The translations under genes and the position numbers were made by a program. A stretch of DNA of 28,930 bases from a virus. Positions 1-19,344 of this stretch are shown here, piece after piece. The notes beneath the pieces are model-generated. The model was given only the letters and a program-made list of their open reading frames with translations, ran no database searches and was not told the DNA's origin. Every line of letters starts with the position of its first letter. The stretch's first letter is position 1. The DNA lies in the IMG/VR virus record IMGVR_UViG_3300009505_001264, positions 1 to 28,930 of that record. One strand, written 5' to 3'.

Positions 1-540
1 ATAAACTGATGTTGCACAATCAATACTAAATGGATATTTTTCATCGGATGGAAATGCGATTGCATATGGATTCGTACCCATTTTTGGTTCTGCTCCGTTG
101 AATGGTGCAACCGCAGGTCGTGCATTTGTAAAACTCATTCCCACTAAATTATGATCAGTTGCATACCGACTATAATAACTTGCGATTCCGTAATGTGAAG
201 AATTTTTAACTGCAACGCAACTGATTCCATGTTCTTGAGTTTTTGCAATTGCTTGATTCATTGCGTATTTACCAACGATTTGACCAAGAGCATTGTGACC
301 ATCAATCGTTACACAAGCCTTGTTGTCACGCACAATTTCAGGAGTTGCATTTACATCAATCACTCCATCTTGAATTCGTTTTATATAATAACCAAGTCTG
401 CTTAATCCGTGAGACTTAAATCCAAGTTCATCAGCACTTAATAATACATCTGCACATACACTTGAATATTTGCTTGGTACTTGATTTTTTTCAAATACCC
501 ACTTCGCAAATTCAATTGCATCTTTAAGTTTTATTTTCAT
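1..540 (-). CDS. Malate/L-lactate dehydrogenase family (Ldh_2) oxidoreductase, 3' end cut off by window
   Basis: Reading from the ATG at 540 gives 180 uninterrupted codons to the window edge, about half of the usual 330-350 residues. Family marks are clear: SHGLSRLGYY at residues 43-52, GHNALGQIVG near 81-90, KNSSHYG with the expected catalytic His116, GTNPYAIAFP near 156-165 and IDCATS near 174-179, matching the family's DMATS signature. These NAD(P)-dependent enzymes act on 2-hydroxy acids (malate, sulfolactate, ureidoglycolate, diketogulonate). The substrate cannot be told from this half. The start lies inside the end of the upstream DUF2784-like gene (17-base overlap), so translation is probably coupled. 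No break is seen, so it looks like a working gene. The family call is firm; the reaction is open. Confidence 0.9.
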   Translation of the reverse strand, partial: MKIKLKDAIEFAKWVFEKNQVPSKYSSVCADVLLSADELGFKSHGLSRLGYYIKRIQDGVIDVNATPEIVRDNKACVTIDGHNALGQIVGKYAMNQAIAKTQEHGISCVAVKNSSHYGIASYYSRYATDHNLVGMSFTNARPAVAPFNGAEPKMGTNPYAIAFPSDEKYPFSIDCATSVY

Positions 541-934
541 TTTGCTCTTTTGATTTTCTAATCTCACGTGCTTTTCTTATTTTCCTACGAACATACGGTT
601 TCAGAAAATAATGACCAATAAATCCCTTGATAGTTGGTTTACCTATCTGCACTCTTAATTTATTTTCATAACGTGTCATTGGGCAATCTAATACTCTTGA
701 AAATGAAATTAATATAATAAACGAACATAAAGGTAAACATACATACCAAGGATAACCAATCGGTGTTAATCCCTGAACTGCAAGTATAAAAAATGCACTA
801 AAGTTGCCAATTACAACTGCCCAATGTAATAGAACTACTACAAGTAGTTTAAGATGTCGCAACGGATTGGTTGGTAAAAATCTAAGAAACCTTTTTTCGT
901 CAGAAGGTTCTGTTATATTTTCATCGTTCTCCAT
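524..934 (-). CDS. DUF2784-like small membrane protein
   Basis: This is a 136-residue protein with two hydrophobic segments, at about residues 28-54 and 60-80, so it should sit in the inner membrane. After the second segment comes CPMTRYENKLR and then GFIGHYFLKP. This matches the pattern I know from DUF2784 (CPLT, ENxLR, GFIxHYL), a bacterial family of unknown function. The C-terminus is strongly basic (KPYVRRKIRKAREIRKSKEQ) and likely cytoplasmic. The only plausible start is the ATG at 934, one base after a 7-bp inverted repeat (936-960). Its 3' end overlaps the Ldh_2 gene. A bacterial-type membrane protein coupled to a dehydrogenase suggests a joint role, but nothing in the sequence proves this. 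Confidence 0.75.
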   Translation of the reverse strand: MENDENITEPSDEKRFLRFLPTNPLRHLKLLVVVLLHWAVVIGNFSAFFILAVQGLTPIGYPWYVCLPLCSFIILISFSRVLDCPMTRYENKLRVQIGKPTIKGFIGHYFLKPYVRRKIRKAREIRKSKEQNENKT

Positions 935-2751: not shown

Positions 2752-3225
2752 TTAATTTTTATATGTCGCACATTCGCAATCTTTTATCTTACAATCGGGA
2801 TTTATCATACCTGCACGATTGAATGTAAGTTTTACAAATTCCTCAAAAAAGAAGACATAAGCAGCTGCATCATAATTGTCCCGTGCGATTGAAATTTCTT
2901 TTTCGTATGTTCTCATCCACTTGGTATATTCATCAAATTTATTCGGATCGTAATGAGGTCCTTTTAAGTCGTATTGATGAACCATTACTGCCAAATCTAA
3001 TTGTGATTTTTTTAACGTAGCAAATCTTGCAATGTCTTTAGAAAACTTTGCTTTTTCTCGTTTATCTTTTTCGTATGCTTCGTATGATGCTTGTAATCTT
3101 GGATCGATAATGTCCATCCAAGTTTTATCGTCTTCCTTTATAAACCCATCACCCTTGGCACAATAAAGCACCAAGGGTGATAAAAATAAAAATGTAACCT
3201 TTAAAATAGACCTAATCAGTCTCAA
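2752..3225 (-). CDS. Hypothetical secreted or lipid-anchored protein
   Basis: This 157-residue protein begins with a basic, hydrophobic signal-like stretch (MRLIRSILKVTFLFLSPLVL) followed by YCAKG. The Cys could be a lipobox Cys, but Tyr at -1 is not usual for signal peptidase II, so lipidation is doubtful. The rest is charged and probably helical, ending in a Cys-rich tail (CKIKDCECATYKN). The start is a TTG at 3225, which overlaps the protease stop by four bases (TTGA), a typical coupling arrangement. Starting later would lose the signal sequence. I do not recognise the family. Coupling to the secreted protease suggests that the two act together in the envelope. Confidence 0.7.
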   Translation of the reverse strand: MRLIRSILKVTFLFLSPLVLYCAKGDGFIKEDDKTWMDIIDPRLQASYEAYEKDKREKAKFSKDIARFATLKKSQLDLAVMVHQYDLKGPHYDPNKFDEYTKWMRTYEKEISIARDNYDAAAYVFFFEEFVKLTFNRAGMINPDCKIKDCECATYKN

Positions 3226-4223
3226 TACTTCAACTCAAATTTAGGAGTGAAATCTTCAAGAGGTAATTGTTTTAATACTCTCTCCGGATTTCGTTCTCGT
3301 TGATTTGGAAGAATTTTAATGCGAAACGGAAAATGCCTTTGAATTGATTTTTCATCGTCCTCGTCATCGTCTGCACTACGAATAACTCCAGAGTCTTCAA
3401 TTTGCATTCCAAGGATATCATCCATGCTTGGCATATCTTCCTTTGGATCAATTGCCCACATAATATCATTCTTTTTTGCCCATGCTTTCATTCTACGAAC
3501 AGGAACCATTAAATTGAATCCTTCTCCTGCTCCACGAACAATCATTCCTACATACTTTCCATTTTGCAAATAAACTCCACCTCCTGAACTTCCTGGGAAT
3601 GCAGTAACCGTTGTTTGATCGTATTCGTATTTATCAAGTGTTCTTCCTACTTGAGAAATGATACCAGTTGTCATTGAGTTTGCACCCATCTGACCAAGCA
3701 ACGAACCAACATGAAATAAACTTGTTCCAATTGGTACAATACCATCATTAGCATCACTTAAATTAAATTCAACTCCTTCTTTCGCATAATCAGTAGCACG
3801 AACCATAAGAAGTGCCAAATCGTGACCATCGTTGTAATCTGAATATTTGATTACTTTCGCATCCATTTTCATTTCACCAACCCGTCTGCCTTTTTCTACG
3901 AGTTCTTTTACAATAGATGCATCTTCAAATTCCACAATTTTAATGGGTCTACCACCTTCAATAACACTTCTTACCTTGCGAAGATTATCAACAACGTGTG
4001 CGGCCGTCCAAACAAACGTAACTTTTTTTCCGTCTACTTCACGAATGATCATAGCACCAGAGCCTTCTGAACTACTATACTTTGCTTTTGCTTTTATAGT
4101 GACCGATACATCTTGTAAATGGTCTGCAACTTCTCGTACTTGTTTAGCACTTGGTGCTCCTGTTGAAATGTTAATTGAAATTGCCGATAAGGCCACTACT
4201 AAAAGAAGTTTGCTTGCGTTCAT
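3222..4223 (-). CDS. Secreted trypsin-like serine protease
   Basis: This 333-residue protein has an N-terminal signal peptide (hydrophobic residues 5-20, likely cut after STGA). The chymotrypsin/HtrA-type triad is complete: His76 in TAAHVV, Asp135 in HDLALL and Ser213 in GSSGGGV. No PDZ domain is seen. The last 70 residues are acidic, then basic and Pro-containing (DDDEDDEKS near 286-294), perhaps a regulatory or autoprocessed tail. A strong Shine-Dalgarno (AGGAGG, 4233-4238) precedes the ATG. Upstream are a sigma70-type promoter and a TATAAATA box. It should act in the periplasm or be exported. Possible roles are host envelope remodelling, cleavage of receptor or defence proteins, or lysis support. 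Phage proteases are usually cytoplasmic prohead proteases, which this is not. Confidence 0.9.
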   Translation of the reverse strand: MNASKLLLVVALSAISINISTGAPSAKQVREVADHLQDVSVTIKAKAKYSSSEGSGAMIIREVDGKKVTFVWTAAHVVDNLRKVRSVIEGGRPIKIVEFEDASIVKELVEKGRRVGEMKMDAKVIKYSDYNDGHDLALLMVRATDYAKEGVEFNLSDANDGIVPIGTSLFHVGSLLGQMGANSMTTGIISQVGRTLDKYEYDQTTVTAFPGSSGGGVYLQNGKYVGMIVRGAGEGFNLMVPVRRMKAWAKKNDIMWAIDPKEDMPSMDDILGMQIEDSGVIRSADDDEDDEKSIQRHFPFRIKILPNQRERNPERVLKQLPLEDFTPKFELKY

Positions 4224-8364: not shown

Positions 8365-9444
8365 CTACGAATTACTTGTAATTGCATAGTTGTTTAGAAC
8401 GGTCCACGTTTCCATAAGCCAGTTATGGTGATTAGGAAAGGCTGCCCATAGTTGATCTTCTGCGAACTTTTTACTAAATTCAAATTTATTAAGTTCTGTG
8501 ACTGAAGAATCAATATGATCAAAGATTTTGGTCTGCATACTCGCAGGAAGAATACTATCTTTTAATTGCATTAGATCATAATTTCGTTTTAGCAATTGTT
8601 GATTATCTTCTTTTAAAAAGTTTTTGTACAAAGGCATTTCTTTGAGTTTATCTTCTGAAATTTTTATTAAGTCTTCTCTGTTCAATGGGGTGGTTTCTGC
8701 AAGTTCAGGAAACGCCGTTTTGAGTTTTTTTTCACCTACACCTTTCATTCCATCTATGTTATCTCCACGATCACCGTCAATGGTTCTGTATAATAGAAAA
8801 TTATTTGGATGAATTCCGTACTCCAACGAAACTTTTTCAGGAGTATAAATTGTTCGTTTAGTAGGACTATAAACCGTTACGTCTTCGTCAACGAGTTGTA
8901 GAAAGTCTTTGTCTGTACTCATTATAGTACACTTTTTACCAAGACCACTGAAATATGATCTTGCGAGAAGTGCCATAACATCATCTGCCTCTACATTATC
9001 CATACATATAGTAGTAACAGGAAGCATATTCAAATATTGTATCAATTTAACTATCTGATACTTCATTGAACTTGATTCTTCAGTTTGATCCAAGTCTAAA
9101 CTTAATGCACGGTTTACCCGAAACCGAACATTCTTTTTCATTTTATAGTCGGGAAAGATTTTGCGTCTTCTTGCACTTCCACCTTTTCCATCAAAGATGA
9201 CAACACATCGTGTCGGTTTTCGTAATCTAATTGCGTGACCTATGCTTTTTAAAAACCCGGTATATCCACCGATGTGATCACCATTGTCGTTCGTGGTTGG
9301 ATACATACTCCAAACCCGCATGAACGTGTTCATGCCGTCAATTAAAAGTGTATCAGAATTTATATTCCGATCTACATCTAGTTCTTCTTTTTGTTCAGCT
9401 GAAAACTCCTGAAATAAACTAAATATCTTTTTTTTGTCACTCAT
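8365..9444 (-). CDS. 5'-3' exonuclease / flap endonuclease (T4 RNase H or Pol I 5'-nuclease family)
   Basis: This 359-residue nuclease shows the metal-binding acidic set of the FEN/5'-nuclease family: Asp36 (LLIDGMN), Asp85 (VIFDGKGG), Glu152/Asp154/Asp155 (VEADDVMA), Asp178/Asp180 (STDKDF) and Asp223/Asp225/Asp228 (TIDGDRGDNI). A helix-hairpin-helix region follows (GMKGVGEKKL). It should remove RNA primers and flaps from Okazaki fragments. I place the start at the ATG at 9444, which overlaps the recA stop by 8 bases (ATGAGTGA). A longer reading from 9483 would run 39 further bases into recA and adds no conserved sequence. Its place between recA and the helicase fits lagging-strand processing. 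Confidence 0.93.
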   Translation of the reverse strand: MSDKKKIFSLFQEFSAEQKEELDVDRNINSDTLLIDGMNTFMRVWSMYPTTNDNGDHIGGYTGFLKSIGHAIRLRKPTRCVVIFDGKGGSARRRKIFPDYKMKKNVRFRVNRALSLDLDQTEESSSMKYQIVKLIQYLNMLPVTTICMDNVEADDVMALLARSYFSGLGKKCTIMSTDKDFLQLVDEDVTVYSPTKRTIYTPEKVSLEYGIHPNNFLLYRTIDGDRGDNIDGMKGVGEKKLKTAFPELAETTPLNREDLIKISEDKLKEMPLYKNFLKEDNQQLLKRNYDLMQLKDSILPASMQTKIFDHIDSSVTELNKFEFSKKFAEDQLWAAFPNHHNWLMETWTVLNNYAITSNS

Positions 9445-10597
9445 TTGAAACTGATGCCAATTCAGCATCTTCAATTTCAGCATTATCAGTAAACTCTACA
9501 TCTTCGTCTATGACACTGTTTGCTGATTGATATTCCATAATAAGATTGTCGCATATATGTTGATACAATTCTTCTTTTAATTCTACATCTTTCAACATTT
9601 CAGGAAATTCTTTTGCCATGAACTTATAGTCTTTTCCTTTGGAATCTGTAAATGAATAATACGCACCACCCTGTTTCAAGATTTTGTGAGTTTTGAGTGT
9701 GGTTATCCAACTTCCAACATCATCAACTCCACGATTAAAATAAATTTCAAACGATGCTTTTCGTTGTGGAGGGCCCATTCTATTTTTTACAATGGTTGCT
9801 TCGCACTTTCCACCGATAACTTCCGTGGTTGCACCTTTTTTAATTTGCCCCATACTTTTAAGACGAATGCGAACACTTGCGTGAAACGCAAGTGCTTTAC
9901 CACCACTCGTTGTCCACGGATCACCAAACATAACTCCCATCTTTTGACGAAGTTGGTTAGTGAATACCAATGCGATTTTTTGTCTTCCAATTGTTGAAGT
10001 TAACTTACGCATTGCTTTACTAATTAAAATTGCTTTGGTGGTTGCATAACCATCCTTTGCGTAATCGGCTGCCATCTCAATTTTAGTTGATGCAGCTGAT
10101 ACACTATCTGTTACAATCGTTACGAGTTTATCTTTGTTTGATTTACGTACCGTTGCGATGATATTATCAATCGTTGCGAATATATCTTCAACCGTATCAA
10201 CGTGAACATACAATAACTTGTCAGTATCAACACCTATTGCTTTTAAATACTCAATGGATACACTGGTCTCGGTATCTATTAATACCGCAACACCTCCCTT
10301 CTTTTGAGTTTCCGCAAGAATGTGTCCTGAAATTAAACTTTTACCACTTTGTTCAAGTCCGGTAAGTTCTGTGATTCGGCCTGCTGGTATTCCACCATTA
10401 GGACGATTGGAAATGGCAAGATCAAGAACACTACTTCCTGTCGGAATCCAATCTGAAATCAATGAAGGATCATCACCTTCACTTAAAAAGAACGCAACTT
10501 TGCCTTCATCTTTATATGCAGTATTTAAACTATCTGCGAGAACACTTGCCAAGTCATCTGACTTACTTGTTGCTTTTACTTCTTTTTTCTTTGCCAT
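9437..10597 (-). CDS. recA: RecA/UvsX-type recombinase
   Basis: This 386-residue protein is closer to bacterial RecA than to T4 UvsX in motif wording. Walker A is GLEQSGKS at 80-87, the catalytic Glu is Glu110 (IDTETSVS), Walker B ends in Asp164 (IVTDSVS), and the L2 region has FTNQLRQKMGVMFGDPWTT followed by SGGKALAFHA (about 212-240). It should form filaments on single-stranded DNA for strand exchange and recombination-dependent replication. The C-terminus is acidic, as in RecA (DEDVEFTDNAEIEDAELA). It follows the SSB gene across a 75-base gap that holds a strong hairpin. The start codon is preceded by ATTAAAT, not by a clear Shine-Dalgarno. Confidence 0.95.
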   Translation of the reverse strand: MAKKKEVKATSKSDDLASVLADSLNTAYKDEGKVAFFLSEGDDPSLISDWIPTGSSVLDLAISNRPNGGIPAGRITELTGLEQSGKSLISGHILAETQKKGGVAVLIDTETSVSIEYLKAIGVDTDKLLYVHVDTVEDIFATIDNIIATVRKSNKDKLVTIVTDSVSAASTKIEMAADYAKDGYATTKAILISKAMRKLTSTIGRQKIALVFTNQLRQKMGVMFGDPWTTSGGKALAFHASVRIRLKSMGQIKKGATTEVIGGKCEATIVKNRMGPPQRKASFEIYFNRGVDDVGSWITTLKTHKILKQGGAYYSFTDSKGKDYKFMAKEFPEMLKDVELKEELYQHICDNLIMEYQSANSVIDEDVEFTDNAEIEDAELASVSNE

Positions 10598-10672: not shown

Positions 10673-11503
10673 TTAAGACTTGAACAACTCTTCAAAAGCA
10701 GCCTCAACATCTTCGGTGGAAGTTGCGTTTGGTTTACTTTGTTCAGAAGTTGCACTTGCAACCGTTGGTTGCTTTACTTCTTGTTGTGTTGACTCAACAA
10801 CTACTTTATTAGAACCAACTGATTCCGCAGGTGGAGCATCTTCTTCAGATTCTCCACTCACCCATTTTTCAAGTGCATCTTTCAAGTCATCATAACCGAG
10901 TTCTTGATAGATTTCAGTAATTTCTGCTTGATTGTTAGCAACTGAATCAGCAATATTCTTATTGTCAGATACAGGTGTTGTATTTGGTTTAACACGAATG
11001 TTAGTCTTGGGAAATGATCTACCTGCTTCTTCCGCAGAAAGAAACTCAATAGTGATGTCTCTTCCGTTGGTCGGATCAGTAATGTCTCCATAATCGGGAT
11101 CTGCAATAACTCCCAATAGTTCTTGGTAAACTTCTTTACCAAATCCCCAAAAACGAACTCCTTCTGCTTCTTCACCACGAACGATGACTGGAACAAAAGT
11201 TCTCATTTTTGGCATAAGGGAACGTCCCATGCGATAATCATCTTTATCTCCACTACGAGTCAACTTTTCTGCGAACTCTACGATTGGGTCAGGACGACCA
11301 AATGACTTGGGAGAAAGATAAGTCCGATTGTTGATACCATAATGAAAATATAGTTCAATAAAGGGATTATCTGGTTGATGCATATAAGGTACGATACGAA
11401 CCTGTTGCTTACCGGGTTGAGGTTTCCATTGATAATTCTTACGGTTATTACTCTGAGAGAGATTGGTAAGTTTTGCTTTGATTTTGTCTAGGTCAATTGC
11501 CAT
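10673..11503 (-). CDS. Single-stranded DNA-binding protein, T4 gp32 type
   Basis: This 276-residue protein has the gp32 layout. A basic N-terminal region (about 1-25) suits cooperative self-contact. An OB-fold core follows (KPQPGKQQVRIVPY near 27-40 and FWGFGKEVYQEL near 118-129). The C-terminal tail is long and low in complexity, ending in acidic and aromatic residues (DVEAAFEELFKS) of the type that recruits replication partners. Unlike T4 gp32 there are no Cys residues, so the zinc ribbon is absent; the matching stretch reads LSPKSFGRPDPIVEF. A clear Shine-Dalgarno (AAGGAA) precedes the ATG, and a sigma70-type promoter with a leader made almost only of A and T lies upstream. Confidence 0.88.
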   Translation of the reverse strand: MAIDLDKIKAKLTNLSQSNNRKNYQWKPQPGKQQVRIVPYMHQPDNPFIELYFHYGINNRTYLSPKSFGRPDPIVEFAEKLTRSGDKDDYRMGRSLMPKMRTFVPVIVRGEEAEGVRFWGFGKEVYQELLGVIADPDYGDITDPTNGRDITIEFLSAEEAGRSFPKTNIRVKPNTTPVSDNKNIADSVANNQAEITEIYQELGYDDLKDALEKWVSGESEEDAPPAESVGSNKVVVESTQQEVKQPTVASATSEQSKPNATSTEDVEAAFEELFKS

Positions 11504-11597: not shown

Positions 11598-11828
11598 TTA
11601 AGAATTTTTTCCGTGATTTTGTACGAAATCGTAAAATTCAGCTGCAGTTGCTAAAACATCCTGCGTAGTTGGAAGTGGTGGAATTTCGTATGGAATTTTC
11701 TCAAATGTAGCACTATCTTTTGCTTCATTGTTTTCCATATGCCAAGAGTCCCAAACCATCTCTTTTGCGTTTTTTAGTACCTCCAATCGAATGCCGTAGG
11801 CATTTAAGTTATTATTGTTATTAGTCAT
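11598..11828 (-). CDS. Small conserved-type phage protein, function unknown
   Basis: This 76-residue acidic protein begins with an Asn run (MTNNNNNLNAYGIRLEVLK) coded by AAT repeats, like the start of the helicase. The sequence AYGIRLEVLKNAKEMV reminds me of small uncharacterised proteins in T4-like marine phages; I have no functional link. It has no signal peptide, membrane segment or Cys. It has its own promoter 70 bases upstream (11898-11926), a leader with CA repeats and a 6-bp inverted repeat (CATTAA-CGAA-TTAATG), and it is followed by the SSB promoter, so it may be a single early transcript. Confidence 0.7.
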   Translation of the reverse strand: MTNNNNNLNAYGIRLEVLKNAKEMVWDSWHMENNEAKDSATFEKIPYEIPPLPTTQDVLATAAEFYDFVQNHGKNS

Positions 11829-11940: not shown

Positions 11941-12696
11941 CTATTTTTGCAACATTCGTTCGGTGGAAATACGAACAGCATCTGCATTAATATCACAACC
12001 GATAAAGTTGCGATTCAACGACTTGGCAACTGCCAACGTAGTGCCACTTCCACAATAAAAGTCACCTACCACATCACCTTCGTTACTACTTGCTTTGATA
12101 ATTCTTTCTAAAATCTTAGGATGTTTCTCACTATAATAGTCAGTTGCCTTCTTCACTTTTAATCCAGATGGAATATCATCCCAAACATTTGTAGGTATCG
12201 TTCCAATTTTTAATTTCTCTTCGGTAATATTAGGTCTAGTCTGTTTTTTGCTTATGACAGATTTATACGGAACTCGTATATCAAGATCATTAAACACAAA
12301 TTCATCAGATTTTGTATACACTATAATGTAATCGTGCTTTTTGGCAAACTCTCGTTTGCCACGACCACCTATATTAAACTTTACCACAATTTGATTTCTG
12401 AAATTTTCATATCCAAACACATTATCCATAATCATGCGAATCCAGTGAACTATACGTAAATCCATTTGTAAATAAATTGTTCCGTTTGATTTCAATACTC
12501 GTTTCATTTCATGTAACCGAGGAATATAATGAGAATCTATGGTATGTCGTTCAGCCGGTAAATCTTGATAATCTTTAAACTTTTTACCTGTTCCGTATAA
12601 GATGTCACAATAAATTAAATTTATAGACTCGGTATCTAATCTACCAAGTAACTCTAAATTATCTAATTGATATACTTGATTTGTGTTTGGACTCAC
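11941..12696 (-). CDS. DNA methyltransferase, N6-adenine/N4-cytosine beta type, variant motif IV
   Basis: This 251-residue enzyme has the S-adenosylmethionine-binding motif near its C-terminus (FYCGSGTT, residues 213-220, followed by FIGCDINADAV) and the catalytic region near the N-terminus (LIYCDILYGTG, residues 27-37). That order is the beta class. The usual catalytic DPPY is replaced by DILY (31-34), keeping Asp and Tyr but losing both prolines. The middle (FRNQIVVKFNIGGRGKREF, then KHDYIIVYTKS) is typical of phage and restriction-type methylases. The start is a GTG at 12696, three bases after the SpoVR stop, so it is co-transcribed with the PrkA triad. No restriction partner is seen, which suggests an orphan methylase for self-protection or regulation. 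The target site is unknown. Confidence 0.88.
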   Translation of the reverse strand: MSPNTNQVYQLDNLELLGRLDTESINLIYCDILYGTGKKFKDYQDLPAERHTIDSHYIPRLHEMKRVLKSNGTIYLQMDLRIVHWIRMIMDNVFGYENFRNQIVVKFNIGGRGKREFAKKHDYIIVYTKSDEFVFNDLDIRVPYKSVISKKQTRPNITEEKLKIGTIPTNVWDDIPSGLKVKKATDYYSEKHPKILERIIKASSNEGDVVGDFYCGSGTTLAVAKSLNRNFIGCDINADAVRISTERMLQK

Positions 12697-12699
12697 TTA

Positions 12700-14265
12700 T
12701 CAAACTTTACCACCTTCGTATCGTTTCATTTCTCCATTATTGTAACGATAACGAACTTCTACTTCAACTGACTCTTTTTCATTTCCATATCCTTCTGATT
12801 CTACATCGTATGTAAGGATGTTAATTGGTTTTTTCATAATCTCATGAAGGTATGCCATTGTACCCGTTGCGTATTTAATATCAAGTGGTCTGCCATCAAA
12901 ATCGTGTCTAAGTAAAATTTCTGTATTTTTGTATTTCATGTTTTCCATGTATATGACAGGTCGTCCCATATTAACATGACGTTCAACTAACTTCTGTTTG
13001 ATTGATTTGTAGTCTTTACTTACAACTACATATTTGTTGGTTGATTTATCAAGTGCATATTCAAAGTATTCATATTTTTCACAGAAATCTTTTGTGAAAA
13101 ATTCATTAAGAAATGTTACATCATTATACATTTCACGAACTTCGTAAAGTTTTTCACGACCAAGACCAAGATGTTTGTTCCAATATCTTTTTTCATCTCC
13201 GTTGTCGCAATTTTCATATTCTTTACCAAACTTTCCTTTGTTCCAACGATCTTCGATGTCACGCAATAAAGTATTTCCAAGTTTATATGGATTGTTCATA
13301 TTGTATTTTCCACCAAGAACTCCTGCGTGGTGTTTTGCGTAATCAAAGATTCCTTCGTCTCCCGCAAAGTTACAACTTGCCATGATATAAGAATCCCAAT
13401 AACTTGCCCATCCTTCGTTGAGAACTTTTGTCATTCCTTGTGGACGATAATAAATAGATTCATCACGAATCATACTAAGCACATTCTGTTGCCAGGGTTC
13501 TAAACGACAATGGTTGATAATCATCAACATAATATCTCGTTCAGGTCGAAGTGGAAATTTGTTTTCTGCTAACTTTGTTCGTTCTTCACGCTCTCGTCTT
13601 TGCTTTTCAATATAATGTGCAGGATTAACATACTTCTGCATATATTCTTTCGTTTCCATACGAGAAACGTGTTCTCTTGGTTGACGATCTTCAAAGTTGA
13701 ATTTAGTTGCTTTCTTTAAATTACTTTCACGATAACAAAGTGATGGATCAATTAAATCATCAATTGCAAGAGCTGCATTCAAAAAGTCTTTAACTTTTTT
13801 GCGACCAAACCGATCCATATACATACGAATTTTATCACTATGATTTGCCATCACATTCATCATATTACGATTCGTGTGCTTGAACATAATGTTGTTTTTG
13901 AAAAAATCACTATGTGCAGTTGCGTGTGCAACAACGGTAAGATTATCAACGATAGGATTGTTTCGTTGAAGATACATATAAGTTGGATCGGTATTTACAA
14001 CCATCTCATAAATCTTGCCCATACCAGAGTGATACTGATGATGCAATTGCTCAAATTGTTGTCCGAAATTAAAGTGTGGATAACGAACAGGAAAACCACC
14101 ATAAGCGGCAATCTCAACTATTTCATCTGCATCAAATTCTTCAATACACAACGGATATGGATCAAGTCCATTATCGTAACACGCCTTTAAGCATTCAGGT
14201 ATAAGAGCTGCCAACTCTGGACATACTCCTTCGTTTAAACTATCTACTTCCCATGCAATTCCCAT
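12700..14265 (-). CDS. SpoVR/YcgB family protein
   Basis: This 521-residue protein is full length for SpoVR (about 470-510 in bacteria). Family signatures are GKIYEMVVNTDPTYMYL near 82-98, VVAHATAHSDFFKNN near 111-125 and RPERDIMLMIINHCRLEPWQ near 240-259, followed by MIRDESIYYRPQGMTK and NEGWASYWDSYIM. Several conserved His residues (AHATAHSDFF) suggest metal binding, though no reaction is established for the family. SpoVR affects spore cortex in Bacillus, and YcgB belongs to the stress regulon in enteric bacteria. In bacteria it is commonly found with PrkA and DUF444 genes, exactly as here. It starts 4 bases after the DUF444 gene, with GGAGAAG upstream. The sequence looks intact and under selection. 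Confidence 0.96.
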   Translation of the reverse strand: MGIAWEVDSLNEGVCPELAALIPECLKACYDNGLDPYPLCIEEFDADEIVEIAAYGGFPVRYPHFNFGQQFEQLHHQYHSGMGKIYEMVVNTDPTYMYLQRNNPIVDNLTVVAHATAHSDFFKNNIMFKHTNRNMMNVMANHSDKIRMYMDRFGRKKVKDFLNAALAIDDLIDPSLCYRESNLKKATKFNFEDRQPREHVSRMETKEYMQKYVNPAHYIEKQRREREERTKLAENKFPLRPERDIMLMIINHCRLEPWQQNVLSMIRDESIYYRPQGMTKVLNEGWASYWDSYIMASCNFAGDEGIFDYAKHHAGVLGGKYNMNNPYKLGNTLLRDIEDRWNKGKFGKEYENCDNGDEKRYWNKHLGLGREKLYEVREMYNDVTFLNEFFTKDFCEKYEYFEYALDKSTNKYVVVSKDYKSIKQKLVERHVNMGRPVIYMENMKYKNTEILLRHDFDGRPLDIKYATGTMAYLHEIMKKPINILTYDVESEGYGNEKESVEVEVRYRYNNGEMKRYEGGKV

Positions 14266-14269
14266 AATA

Positions 14270-15424
14270 TTAAAAAGGTACTTCTTCTCCGGCAGGTGTT
14301 AATAACTTTTGAAGTGTTTTAAAAACATCCGAACCATCCTGCATTGATGCGGTTACTATCTTGTTAGGGTCTAGATTCCCCGTTGTAAGTTGTGATTGAA
14401 TATGGGGAAGAAATGTTGCCCAACTTCTTACTGCTTTAACTTCTGTTATTCCTACTAGATTTGCATAAGTCTGCATTTTTTTTAAATGTTCAACACACAA
14501 ATCATTGTCAGAACCAAAGTTTTCTCCATCACTCAAATAAAATACATAAATGTTCCATTCATTCAAGGGAAATGCTTTTTCAATTACATCGTTTACCAAT
14601 TCAAATGCACTACTGATTTTTGTTCCTCCTCCACTTTGGTATTTGTAGAACTTTTCTTTATCAACTTCTTGTGCATGGTGATCGTGGACGATATACTTGA
14701 TTTGAGTTTCTTGGTAAAATCGTTCAATCCAATTTTCAAGATACCAACATAATTCACGAATCAACGAACGTTTTTCATCATCCATACTTGCAGATATATC
14801 CGATACAAAAAAGATTGCGGCGTTTGTATCAGGTACTTCAACTGAACTCCAACTTCTAAACTCTTTGTCATCTTTAATAGGATAAAAATTAGACAAATCT
14901 TTAGGATCATAATCATCTGATGCTATTAATCGTTTGAATGCATTTTTTAGAGTTTTTCGTTTGTGTAATAAACTATTGTTTCCAACTTTAGCAATACGAT
15001 TCCATTTGATTTTTTCTTTGATCATTTCCCCATTTTCTTTGGGCAGAAGATTTGGTAGACGCAGTTCTTCACCGATCATATCAAAATAAGAATCCATGCT
15101 TATACCCACATCAATGTCGTGACCGTCACCCTCTCCTTCACCACCTTCACCAGGTTGGCCACCTTGACCCTGCCCTTGAGGTGGTCCTTCACCTACCTCG
15201 TCTCCTATACCAGCCTCTCCGTTACCAATACCACCACCATCGGATGGAGCTCCGTAGCGAAAACTTGGAAGTTCTACATGAGGTACACGAACAACAACAA
15301 AGTCTTTTCCTCTTCGTGTTATTTTTTGACCACCTTTGATGTGCTTTTTGAGTTTCTCGTCAACATTTCCCTTGACGATATCTCTGTACTCACCGTGGTC
15401 TTCTCTGATTCTGCGTGATGGCAT
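14270..15424 (-). CDS. DUF444 / YeaH-YhbH family protein with von Willebrand A-like domain
   Basis: This 384-residue protein opens with the basic N-terminus of the family (MPSRRIREDHGEYRDIV). A Gly/Gln/Glu-rich linker follows at about 57-103, then SMDSYFDMIGEELRLPNL, which corresponds to the E. coli YeaH region before its C-terminal domain. The second half holds a VWA-like fold with a metal-site motif DISAS (FFVSDISASMDDEKR near 200-215) and FYLSDGENFGSDND further on. In bacteria it is encoded with PrkA kinase, which is thought to act with it. Here it follows prkA by 20 bases and precedes spoVR by 4. Function in the phage is unknown; the family assignment is secure. Confidence 0.95.
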   Translation of the reverse strand: MPSRRIREDHGEYRDIVKGNVDEKLKKHIKGGQKITRRGKDFVVVRVPHVELPSFRYGAPSDGGGIGNGEAGIGDEVGEGPPQGQGQGGQPGEGGEGEGDGHDIDVGISMDSYFDMIGEELRLPNLLPKENGEMIKEKIKWNRIAKVGNNSLLHKRKTLKNAFKRLIASDDYDPKDLSNFYPIKDDKEFRSWSSVEVPDTNAAIFFVSDISASMDDEKRSLIRELCWYLENWIERFYQETQIKYIVHDHHAQEVDKEKFYKYQSGGGTKISSAFELVNDVIEKAFPLNEWNIYVFYLSDGENFGSDNDLCVEHLKKMQTYANLVGITEVKAVRSWATFLPHIQSQLTTGNLDPNKIVTASMQDGSDVFKTLQKLLTPAGEEVPF

Positions 15425-15444
15425 AATGATGTATTCGTTGACTA

Positions 15445-17547
15445 TTAATCTTCGTCTTCGTCCGCATCACCTCTCGCAAAAATACTTCCAACATAAGTAA
15501 GAACATCTGAAGCACTATCTGTATCATATCCAAATGAAGTAATAAGTCGTTGCTTCAAAGCATCAATCTTTTCAAGAAGTTCTTTGTCAACAACAGTTGC
15601 GGTATCTTGAGCAAGAGCAGATAACTTTATGCTATCTTTGGTATCTTCAAACAACTTCTTTTCAAGTGCTTTGTATAATTGCTCGTTAGAGTCGTATTTA
15701 AACTCTTTACCCTTAGCGGCAAGTCCACCCATGTAATTCATAATCTCTCTACGGAAATCGTCCTTCATGCCATTGGAAATACCAATTTTTTCTTCTATGC
15801 TACGCATAAGTTGTTCGTTTGCAGTTTCTTCTTTACCGGTAACCAGATTAGTAACTTTTTCGTCTTGAATATACGCAACGATGTTATCAATATAGTTTGT
15901 ACAAGTTGCTTTTATTGCTTCTTCACTGCTACTAAGTGCTTGTTGAACTTCTCGTTTAACAATTCTATCGTATTCTTTTTCTACAGACTCAAGTCGTTCC
16001 ATCATATTCTTTTTGTCATCTTCGTTATTGAATCCACTATAACTTTTAAGGCCTTCTCGAATTTGAGCAAACAACATAAACGGATTCAAACTTTTTGCAC
16101 CCATTCTAGGATTGACGATTGCGTTGGAAAACTGATTCTGAATAAATCGTGCAGAAACTCCACCATATAATCCTTCTTTCGGAGATTCTTCTTGCATTTC
16201 CTTTACGTGTTCATCTGTGAATCCATGCACACTTTGGCCGTTGTAAAGTTTTGCTTTCTGAATGATACCCATATCTTGCTTGGAACTTTCTTCTAAACGA
16301 CTTACAACTGCAAATAACGCAGCCAAATAAGTTGTATGAGGAGCAATATGCTTGTTTACGGTGCTTGTATTATAGAAGTGATCATAAATCTTCTTTTCTT
16401 CGTCAATCTTCAAAAGATAAGGAATGTCGATTTTAATTGTTCTATCACGAAGTGCTTCCATGAACTTATTGTTGGTTAACTTTTCAAACTCAGCATTGTT
16501 AGTATGACCAAGAATAACTTCGTCAATTGGTACTTGGTTGAAACGACGTGGTTTAACACGATGCTCTTGAGTTGCTCCAAGAAGATCATATAGAAACTCG
16601 GTTTGTAACTTGAGAATTTCTTGAAATTCAATAAGTCCACGATTAGCAACCAAAAACTCACCATCAAAATCAAATGCACGTGGATCACTTTCACTTCCAT
16701 ACTCTGCTAACTTTCGGTAATTGATATCACCTGTGAGTTCAGTTGCGTCTTGTGATTTTTCATCTTTTGGTTGGAACGTACCAATGCCGACACGATTCTT
16801 TTCGGATAGAGACACACGACGTATAACAATATGTTCAAGCACTTTACGATAGTCACCTTTGTGCATTTCCATGAGTTGATTGTAGTAAAACTCGTTTACT
16901 GGATTCAACGCACCATCCAATTTCAATTTGTAATCGTCATCAGATGCTTTGGAATTTAGATTACTGATAATTTCAGTACGAACCTCGTCAGGTAAAAGTT
17001 TTAAAGGTTCTTCGTTCATCGGACATGGAACTACGATGTCATTGCCGTCTTTATCAGTTAGTTTCCAACTAAAAGAGTACAATGACCCCTCTTCGGTTCG
17101 GGTGTAATGCTCTAGCCCCTTCTTGAGTGCAGTTACAATTGTTGACTTACTACTACCTACAGGTCCATGTAATAATATAACTCTTCGTTCTGGTCCGTAG
17201 TGCCGACTTGCACTTTTTAAAATATCCATAAACTCCATCAAGTTTTCTTCTAGACCATAAATAGAAATATCGCCGAGACCTTCAAAGAATTTATATTTGA
17301 TGTGTTTACGTTTACAATATGTAAATTCTTCTGTACCATGTGACATAACCATGTCGTACAATCTTTGATACGAATTACGAGCAATCTTTGGATTCTGCTC
17401 CAACAATTCAATGTAATCCCAAAAAGTACCTGTCCAATTCAAAGATTCGTATGTTTTTACTGAATCATCATTGTCAGACCTAATTAACGATTCGAGAGTG
17501 TTTTTACTCTTTTCTGTTTGCTTTTCGTGTCTCTTTTTATTTTCCAT
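15445..17547 (-). CDS. prkA: PrkA (YeaG) family AAA+ serine protein kinase
   Basis: This protein has 700 residues from the ATG at 17547, which has AAGG eight bases upstream; a second ATG at 17553 is too close to that site. It is slightly longer than bacterial PrkA (about 640). Family marks are the N-terminal GTFWDYIELLEQNP region, Walker A GPVGSSKS (128-135), PCPMNEEPLKLLP, RGLIEFQEILK, GATQEHRVK and VILGHTNNAEFEKL, followed by EALRDRTIKIDIPY. The C-terminal third matches the region described as the kinase domain and ends in an acidic tail. In bacteria PrkA works in sporulation, nitrogen starvation and stress survival; ATP-dependent protease activity has also been reported for the Bacillus protein. 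It leads the tight prkA-DUF444-spoVR-methylase run. Confidence 0.96.
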   Translation of the reverse strand: MENKKRHEKQTEKSKNTLESLIRSDNDDSVKTYESLNWTGTFWDYIELLEQNPKIARNSYQRLYDMVMSHGTEEFTYCKRKHIKYKFFEGLGDISIYGLEENLMEFMDILKSASRHYGPERRVILLHGPVGSSKSTIVTALKKGLEHYTRTEEGSLYSFSWKLTDKDGNDIVVPCPMNEEPLKLLPDEVRTEIISNLNSKASDDDYKLKLDGALNPVNEFYYNQLMEMHKGDYRKVLEHIVIRRVSLSEKNRVGIGTFQPKDEKSQDATELTGDINYRKLAEYGSESDPRAFDFDGEFLVANRGLIEFQEILKLQTEFLYDLLGATQEHRVKPRRFNQVPIDEVILGHTNNAEFEKLTNNKFMEALRDRTIKIDIPYLLKIDEEKKIYDHFYNTSTVNKHIAPHTTYLAALFAVVSRLEESSKQDMGIIQKAKLYNGQSVHGFTDEHVKEMQEESPKEGLYGGVSARFIQNQFSNAIVNPRMGAKSLNPFMLFAQIREGLKSYSGFNNEDDKKNMMERLESVEKEYDRIVKREVQQALSSSEEAIKATCTNYIDNIVAYIQDEKVTNLVTGKEETANEQLMRSIEEKIGISNGMKDDFRREIMNYMGGLAAKGKEFKYDSNEQLYKALEKKLFEDTKDSIKLSALAQDTATVVDKELLEKIDALKQRLITSFGYDTDSASDVLTYVGSIFARGDADEDED

Positions 17548-17591
17548 AACCATTACCTTATATTTTTTTTGTTAGTGAGTCAAATATTAAA

Positions 17592-17990
17592 TCAAATTTT
17601 TATTATTTGATGTAGTTTTGTTGGTACAATTCTTACTCCATGCACCGGATCAGTTAGTAATATTGAATTGAAGTAATCTTTCCAATTTACTAAAAAATGT
17701 GTGTCCAACACATCATTATTGAGTTTTTTAATCAACTCATTTAATGAATTTATTGTGTATAGTGTGTTGGAATCTTTTTTTCTGTGAACACTTATTGTGT
17801 TTGGAAAGAAAGAGTTAGATGGTGATGTAGTAGCATCTATATTATATGTCAGCAACACTTCGTCAACATCATCTGTGTTTTGTAAAACATATATCTTACC
17901 AAAAACTATTTTGTAGAATGTATCTATATTTCCTGCAACGTTTCTGTAATTTTTTATATCGGAGAATGTGCAAAGGAGCTGTGTTTTCAT
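17592..17990 (-). CDS. Conserved-type phage protein, function unknown
   Basis: This 132-residue protein is read from the ATG at 17990 (MKTQLLCTF). A longer reading from 18053 overlaps the preceding stop by 8 bases, but its extra 21 codons are almost pure A/T and look non-coding. The core has NTISVHRKKDSNTLYTINSL and FLVNWKDYFNSILLTD, which recall uncharacterised small proteins of T4-like marine phages; this is memory, not a search. It has no membrane segment or signal. It sits between the polymerase-like gene and prkA, and is probably in the same transcript. A weak TTGACT and TATAAG pair lies between it and prkA, but the 15-base spacing is poor. Confidence 0.7.
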   Translation of the reverse strand: MKTQLLCTFSDIKNYRNVAGNIDTFYKIVFGKIYVLQNTDDVDEVLLTYNIDATTSPSNSFFPNTISVHRKKDSNTLYTINSLNELIKKLNNDVLDTHFLVNWKDYFNSILLTDPVHGVRIVPTKLHQIIKI

Positions 17991-18045
17991 AAAATTATAT
18001 AACCATTTAAAAATTAATATATGTATATAAATATCACTCGAAGTT

Positions 18046-19344
18046 CTAAACATTGATTAATTTTAAATCTCCGTAGTTACCACCTGCGTATATTTTCACA
18101 GGATACATTCCATCATCTATCAATGAATTTTTAATATTTTCAACATAATGAAAGTCGGAAAATTTCATATCAAATATAAATGCGTCATAGTGATATAAAA
18201 TAAATTTAATGTCGGTAGATTTAATTTCTTCATTAATTTTCTTCATCATTAAACAATTTCGTTCTGTTTCGGCATTCTGTAATACATAGTTAAAAAGTTT
18301 ATATGGATTTAATTCTCCGTATGTAGATTTTCTAAGTTTCTTTTTGTAAAACCATGTTTTAACATATCCAAGTGAATTATATTCTCTCCACAATTTTTCT
18401 ACATACAATGCGATCTGGTTCATAAACGGAATATTTTCTTTAATATCATCAGACACTCCTCCGTACATTATATTAAAAGTTATCTTTTTTGAAAGTTCGT
18501 ATTCCTCTTCTGTTAGTGTATCTTTGTCGTGATACAAACAACCAAGATACTCATGTAAAGATGTTTTGGGTAAATCAAATCCAACCTGAGTTCCAAATAG
18601 TCGTAAGTGATAACTTTCATAATCAATCATAACTATCGCACCCTCATCGTGCCTACTACAAATACAATCTCTTTCATTTTTCTTTTTATTCAAAGCTGCA
18701 AAATTGATTTTTGCAAATCGGTTGCTTGGTCTGTAGGTTGGGGTAAGCATATTGTACTGACTATGTACACAATCTTGTTCATCAATTACCACATGATCTG
18801 CTAAATTAAATGTGCGTCTATCAACATGAATGCCATTTGACTCAATCATAGATAATTGCTTTGAGAAATCGTCTTCAAACTCACATTGCTCTATATCAAC
18901 ATATTCTATTTTATTTTTTAAAAGTTCCAAGGTATCGTTGAAACTTTTTTTAATGATCATAATTGGACACGATCTTATGTCAGTTACATTTGGTAATTTA
19001 ACATACAATTCGTTTAATGTCTTTGCATAATTATCAAACTTGATATCAATAAAATTATTCAAGTTTGCAAAATGTCTGGCATTTTTTTTGTCAAAAATTA
19101 GTTTTTTACACGGAACATTCAGTACAATTTGTAAAATGTCTGGATTAATACAAATTATATCAGGATGAGAAAACGAAAATACATATGTCTCATGTGTATC
19201 AAAGTGGTGAACAAACAACACAATAGGTGAAGTTTTTGAAGGATGTATTTTTTCATTGTATATAAAATGAAAAAAACAAGTTCCGTGTGTTACAATTGAT
19301 TGATATTCTTGTAAATCATTCAACGACTCAACATAAATTGACAT
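18046..19344 (-). CDS. Short, divergent family A DNA polymerase-like protein
   Basis: This 432-residue protein has family A landmarks in order: SMIESNGIHVD (165-175), then YNMLTPTYRPSNRFAKINF (197-215), matching the T-x-x-x-R-L-S region. Motif A is MIDYESYHLRLFG with Asp241, motif B is KKITFNIMYGG with Lys286, Phe290 and Tyr294, FNYVLQNAETE (351-361) stands for the N-x-x-x-Q helix, and motif C is YHYDAFIFD with Asp387. Both catalytic Asp are kept. Changes from Pol I are Glu710 to His246, Arg754 lost in motif B, and HDE to YDA in motif C. The first 120 residues may be a worn exonuclease domain, with no catalytic acid set visible. A near-consensus promoter places the RNA start almost at this ATG. 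Whether it polymerises DNA is uncertain. Confidence 0.8.
   Translation of the reverse strand: MSIYVESLNDLQEYQSIVTHGTCFFHFIYNEKIHPSKTSPIVLFVHHFDTHETYVFSFSHPDIICINPDILQIVLNVPCKKLIFDKKNARHFANLNNFIDIKFDNYAKTLNELYVKLPNVTDIRSCPIMIIKKSFNDTLELLKNKIEYVDIEQCEFEDDFSKQLSMIESNGIHVDRRTFNLADHVVIDEQDCVHSQYNMLTPTYRPSNRFAKINFAALNKKKNERDCICSRHDEGAIVMIDYESYHLRLFGTQVGFDLPKTSLHEYLGCLYHDKDTLTEEEYELSKKITFNIMYGGVSDDIKENIPFMNQIALYVEKLWREYNSLGYVKTWFYKKKLRKSTYGELNPYKLFNYVLQNAETERNCLMMKKINEEIKSTDIKFILYHYDAFIFDMKFSDFHYVENIKNSLIDDGMYPVKIYAGGNYGDLKLINV

Follow-up and report, generated by a model that had tools for sequence, protein, structure and literature searches.

Introduction

Many different bacteria carry the PrkA-YeaH-SpoVR trio, the biochemical job of which is an old question. 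In Rhizobium etli, the three genes (CH02817-02815) form an operon of stationary phase controlled by guanosine tetraphosphate (ppGpp) and sigma-54, the first gene being the one most strongly induced by ppGpp in stationary phase (PMC3188799). PrkA of Bacillus anthracis is an AAA+ protein that forms oligomers in an ATP-dependent manner and is required for survival of osmotic stress (PMC13001217). Here, we analyze prkA, a gene of the DUF444 (YeaH-YhbH) family, and spoVR in the viral record IMGVR_UViG_3300009505_001264 of IMG/VR, whose whole 28,930-base stretch is designated the window. The analysis shows that a phage lineage carries a complete and intact prkA-DUF444-spoVR operon, inherited as one unit.

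Phages harboring these families have been described, smaller sets of this sort being known from hot springs. The Thermus phages phiYS40, TMA, MN1, phiLo, and Lalka have all three close together in a tailed-phage genome, as does the window. Since these genes are already annotated in GenBank, a phage-borne trio is not a first. Unlike the window, the Thermus phages have the order DUF444-SpoVR-PrkA, with an extra gene before the kinase in phiYS40, are only about 20-33% identical, and form a separate branch; the window is therefore not a trio of the Thermus-phage type, differing in both order and clade. The Ralstonia jumbo myovirus RsoM2USA encodes PrkA (ORF30) and SpoVR (ORF28) two genes apart, although its SpoVR is 56% identical to that of Vibrio and belongs to the proteobacterial subfamily, unlike that of the window (PMC8504454). 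Several huge phages also carry all three families. One huge phage, LR756511 (595 kb), belongs with a set of IMG/VR loci designated clade B and has the order and subfamily of the window, whose own group is designated clade A. PrkA of LR756511 and clade B is nevertheless only about 48-51% identical to that of the window, the genomic backbone is different, and the IMG/VR loci of clade B have a ClpP-type protease, a Zn-ribbon protein, and some SpoVR inteins. Among the viral sporulation genes of an oxygen-minimum-zone virome, spoVR ranked first in abundance (PMC8940887); our literature search found no study of the trio in marine phages. The new elements are a deep viral lineage, fixation in one phage group at a defined insertion point, strong constraint, inteins in SpoVR, and a ClpP neighbor.

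Results

A complete operon in a phage genome

The three genes lie on the minus strand. The first, prkA (15445..17553), encodes 702 residues comprising an AAA+ ATPase domain (PF08298, E value 3e-84) and the PrkA C-terminal domain (PF06798, 1e-70); both are complete and in order, with matches to positions 2-357 of 358 and 1-255 of 255 of the respective profiles. The DUF444 gene (14270..15424, 384 residues; PF04285, 9e-66), the product of which has a C-terminal VWA domain with a complete MIDAS, follows after 20 bases, and spoVR (12700..14265, 521 residues) after a further 4 bases. PF04293 was matched over residues 18-433 of SpoVR (1e-107), covering positions 7-405 of the 407 of the profile. Full-domain Pfam matches and coordinates thus agree with a preliminary description of this DNA, which reported three full-length genes with this order and spacing. 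Its start for the trio, 17547, identified the right locus but is the second in-frame methionine codon of prkA, the first ATG being at 17553.

Families, order, strand, and diagnostic motifs are common to the window and to the bacterial operon, as found in R. etli, Thermomicrobium, and Myxococcota (PMC3188799). In contrast, the viral copies are set apart in a clade of their own, on long branches, lie beside phage genes, and encode a PrkA that is 51-56% identical to bacterial PrkA. The adjacency and order of the genes are those of most bacterial trio loci compared. The order claimed for the bacterial set is accordingly valid for Thermomicrobium, Legionella, and most Myxococcota loci, but not for Escherichia coli, since ycgB is located about 630 kb from the adjacent yeaG and yeaH genes.

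The motifs reported to be intact were invariant or nearly so in our alignments. In an alignment of 12 viral PrkAs, the Walker A motif GPVGSSKS was nearly or fully invariant, and G130, G133, K136, S137, and E309/E312 were invariant. The MIDAS (DISAS) motif of the DUF444 protein was complete (D209-S211-S213, T268, and D299) and invariant in an alignment including E. coli YeaH. In SpoVR, H64, H114, H118, and E284 were invariant among viral and bacterial sequences, E. coli YcgB included. The pattern H114-x3-H118 together with E284 suggests a predicted metal or catalytic site.

Fixation and constraint

A search of IMG/VR with PrkA of the window detected 161 related places, and an alignment-based search detected 169. 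Gene order was surveyed in the best 80 of the 161 loci. Four of these end within or just after prkA; in each of the others (76/76), prkA is followed by DUF444 and spoVR, in the same order and without a change of strand. Both of the latter genes are split by apparent frameshifts at one clade A locus (L016, also L106; IMGVR 3300046168_000085), as a result of either sequencing error or decay.

Presence of the trio was compared using backbone anchors, all on the minus strand, namely the genes for a UvsX-like recombinase (9437..10597; phrog_97), for a gp32-like single-strand DNA-binding protein on the right-hand side (10673..11503; PF08804, phrog_1192), and, on the left-hand side beside prkA, for h153 (17592..18053), which has no assigned function and occupies the same place in sister phages. 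An N6/N4 DNA methylase gene (11941..12696, minus strand; PF01555) is located 3 bases downstream of spoVR. The UvsX-anchored set comprised 20 contigs with at least 83% identity, 6 of which start at or beyond the methylase gene and are uninformative. The trio was found at the same place in the 14 informative close relatives (14/14). In 32 sister contigs (UvsX identity of 61-64%) spanning gp32 to h153 or h432, the trio and the methylase gene were both absent from this place (0/32), and the backbone was identical in order (baseplate-h432-h153-gp32-uvsX-exonuclease-dnaB). The methylase gene is part of the same inserted block as the trio. Presence in the 14 relatives and absence from the 32 sisters indicate that the block was gained and fixed in this lineage, or lost in the sisters.

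Comparison of the window with relatives having a measurable synonymous divergence (dS) gave omega values of 0.03-0.08 for prkA, DUF444, and spoVR, in line with those of uvsX, gp32, and dnaB. The genes just upstream of the trio (h432 and h155) evolve fast. The trio is under strong purifying selection and is a stable part of the phage genome. The earlier description of a complete set with intact motifs is thus supported. The trio is therefore a set of cell-type genes carried by a phage and maintained by selection, as are auxiliary metabolic or host-takeover genes.

An artefact, i.e. a bacterial segment misassembled into the viral contig or acquired by it very recently, is next to inconceivable. 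Identical junctions were present in many independent assemblies, the viral copies make up a deep clade of their own, with a PrkA as distant from bacterial PrkA as indicated above, and the same contigs encode a terminase. Repeated recovery of the same junctions in independent contigs rules out misassembly.

Origin of the viral genes

Separate gene trees (113, 111, and 112 rows) grouped clades A and B into one clade, with Shimodaira-Hasegawa-like approximate likelihood ratio test supports of 99, 99, and 95. Bacterial trios, from Myxococcota, Planctomycetota, Chloroflexota, and others, lie outside this clade in the three trees, and a concatenated tree (LG+G4) recovered the viral clade with a support of 98. 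The concatenation rejected the grouping of clade A with bacteria (p = 0.0003); it also rejected that of clade B with bacteria, though less firmly (p = 0.037). The A+B clade is to be read with its long branches and the limited bacterial sampling in mind, and identity is higher between each of the two clades and bacteria (51-57%) than between the clades themselves (about 50%); PrkA of clade B was 53-57% identical to that of eight bacterial genomes.

Distances were correlated between the genes of the trio (Mantel r of 0.86-0.90 in clade B and 0.76-0.91 in clade A). Congruent trees and correlated distances show that the three genes came together, and unrelated origins are ruled out on the same grounds. 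Other phages were placed elsewhere in all three trees: the Thermus phages, with their different gene order, on a separate branch, the huge phage LR745206 with E. coli-type sequences, and locus L076 on a further long branch. These separate branches indicate that phages acquired the trio as a unit, and on more than one occasion.

Location of the methylase gene 3 bases from spoVR, in the same inserted block, would be expected if the trio and the methylase formed a defense or counter-defense module. We consider this quite unlikely: methylase distances track those of the trio weakly (r of 0.34-0.41), none of the PADLOC models fits PrkA, DUF444, or SpoVR, and in bacteria the trio is a stress operon of the chromosome.

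PrkA and its partners

The nearest solved structures to PrkA were 9xip, 9xiq, and 9xir, and the 30 chains distributed over these three entries fit an oligomeric PrkA homologue. The preliminary description treated PrkA as a kinase. This reading is doubtful since purified B. anthracis PrkA showed no activity as a kinase and next to none as a protease, and since its kinase-like C-terminal domain is devoid of a P-loop (PMC13001217). The serine kinase/protease activity of bacterial PrkA is contested, and the name 'kinase' goes back to old results. The family name, the full-length C-terminal PrkA domain, and older phosphorylation reports, cited in PMC3188799, would be in agreement with a serine kinase phosphorylating host or phage proteins, but the results obtained with the B. 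anthracis protein make this role improbable.

The AlphaFold2 model of the DUF444 protein has a VWA fold, and its matches include NorD, as present in NorQD, and the Rea1/MDN1 MIDAS domains. NorD and the Rea1/MDN1 MIDAS domains are linked to AAA+ motors. The PF04285 match combined with a VWA fold containing a full MIDAS assigns the protein to the YeaH/YhbH family. The AAA+ gene prkA adjoins the gene for this MIDAS VWA protein, as AAA+/VWA adaptor systems require. Based on genes and model, PrkA-DUF444 thus resembles NorQ-NorD, RavA-ViaA, CbbQ-CbbO, and Rea1-MIDAS, in which an AAA+ ATPase has a MIDAS VWA partner. PrkA differs from these systems by its own C-terminal domain and by a third partner, SpoVR.

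For SpoVR, a sequence search of the PDB detected no relative, and comparison of its AlphaFold2 model (predicted local distance difference test score of 81) with the PDB revealed no fold match (best E value of 0.15, TM-score of 0.1). Among viral models, the sole strong match was an entry of 617 residues, perhaps SpoVR of phiLo. Inteins of about 400 residues with LAGLIDADG parts were found at two sites in clade B SpoVR (loci L045, L055, L057, L068, L071, and L072; the Pfam test was applied to L045 only), and SpoVR of L072 seems to hold inteins at both sites. Inteins favor conserved sites of important genes.

Proposed function during infection

Since PrkA belongs to the AAA+ proteins, the DUF444 model matches the NorD and Rea1 MIDAS domains, and SpoVR has invariant His and Glu residues, the trio may be read as an AAA+/VWA remodeling machine acting with SpoVR. 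By analogy with the bacterial operon, we propose, with a probability of about 0.5, that it is a phage-borne bacterial stress module that holds the infected cell viable until lysis. PrkA would be the ATP-driven AAA+ ring, and the DUF444 protein its MIDAS/VWA partner, which would recruit or position a target, as in NorQ-NorD, RavA-ViaA, CbbQ-CbbO, and Rea1. SpoVR, the conserved His/Glu protein, would be the effector or client of this machine. The phage would make its own copy of the module during infection regardless of the host control by RpoS, ppGpp, and sigma-54. Judging from bacterial physiology, a resource-poor infected cell might in this manner be kept viable, and its envelope and proteins stable, until lysis. 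Kinase signaling would be unnecessary. The suggestion of the preliminary description that the phage imposes a host starvation program is no more than possible.

Phages have captured a full trio several times separately, which speaks for a unit that retains the biochemical function it has natively. Long retention and repeated capture by phages suggest a self-sufficient unit whose product aids lytic infection.

Other observations weigh against the proposed stress module. The physiological role of the trio is itself unsettled in bacteria. Single-gene approximately unbiased tests on reduced sets did not separate one from two viral origins (p of 0.17-0.44), PrkA alone being neutral. In the Thermus phage Lalka8, the trio has a minor head gene on one side and TerL on the other, and a ClpP-type protease gene follows spoVR in clade B; both fit a phage-specific protein job equally well. 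Such a job, in which the trio would be a protein-remodeling or proteolysis machine acting on proteins of the phage or on captured ones of the host (in assembly, replication, or clearing of host factors) rather than a stress program, is a less probable but tenable alternative. It is favored by the Lalka8 location, by the VWA fold of DUF444, which is used as an AAA+ adaptor, and by the ClpP-family serine protease, with its Ser and His residues kept, encoded immediately after spoVR at many loci of clade B (L041-L057). It is also favored by the full-length DnaK/HSP70 (643 residues; L269:106-2037, plus strand) encoded at the opposite end of the phage contig described below (PF00012, E value 1e-254; NCBIfam DnaK above the cut-off). 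A phage-borne DnaK is unusual and may be connected with a role of the trio in proteostasis. However, the phage of the window has no ClpP beside its trio, nor is any found there in clade A, the trio of the window lies outside the head/terminase cluster, and phage ClpP-like genes are often head maturation proteases according to their PHROG label, as could be the case in clade B.

In clade B, the trio belongs to a conserved cassette with the order 103-residue open reading frame, small Zn-ribbon protein, PrkA, DUF444, SpoVR, and ClpP-family protease. The protease gene starts about 70-240 bases from spoVR in about ten loci and farther in others. This arrangement hints at a protein-quality role. A more tentative variant is that of a virus-specific AAA+/VWA/SpoVR machine, long evolved in phages and coupled to ClpP in sister viruses, whose job would be to unfold or degrade host or defense proteins selectively, or to mature virions, instead of running a host stress program.

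Compactness and strong constraint of the copies in phages make the old question on the trio testable; the inteins and the ClpP-type neighbor of some copies offer hints to the active parts. If the stress module proposed above is the true reading, aquatic phages would carry a whole stress module as opposed to single metabolic genes.

Genomic surroundings

The trio is flanked downstream by the DNA methylase gene and upstream by two fast-evolving genes. Beyond these flanks, baseplate and tail genes are located on one side, and the genes for the gp32-like protein, UvsX, an exonuclease, and a helicase on the other, in agreement with the earlier placement of the trio between tail and replication genes. 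A small open reading frame (11598..11828, minus strand; 76 residues) without assigned function, located between the block and the gp32-like gene, is conserved in clade A by synteny. Upstream, h153 is fast-evolving (mean distance of 0.39), as is h432 (18046..19344, minus strand; 432 residues, no assigned function). Pfam, PHROG, and NCBIfam gave no match for h432; by eye, its motifs DYESYHLRLFG, KKITFNIMYGG, and YHYDAFIFD read like those of a divergent family A DNA polymerase palm.

From base 524 onward, the window is 99.99% identical to the terminal 28.4 kb of an IMG/VR contig of 151,802 bases, which encodes a T4-type terminase, a major head protein, a tail sheath, and five tRNAs. The terminase shares 52% identity with the terminases of Flavobacterium phage immuto and Microcystis phage Mel-JY01. 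The source of the window is a large aquatic virus of bacteria belonging to a T4-type contractile-tailed lineage. The Bacteroidota promoter motif TAnnTTTG, sought as a pointer to the host, was not enriched over the reversed sequence. Nor was the T4 late-promoter motif enriched, which was sought to tell early from late expression of the trio, and sigma-70 promoters and terminators around the trio were not above those of shuffled sequences.

The same phage encodes an alpha/beta hydrolase fused to a glycerophosphodiester phosphodiesterase domain (L270:5470-7023, plus strand). In the window, a gene for a trypsin-like protease (3222-4223, minus strand) adjoins ribonucleotide reductase genes. A malate/L-lactate dehydrogenase family gene (1-567, minus strand; PF02615, E value 2e-65), truncated by the end of the window, is a possible metabolic gene of the phage.

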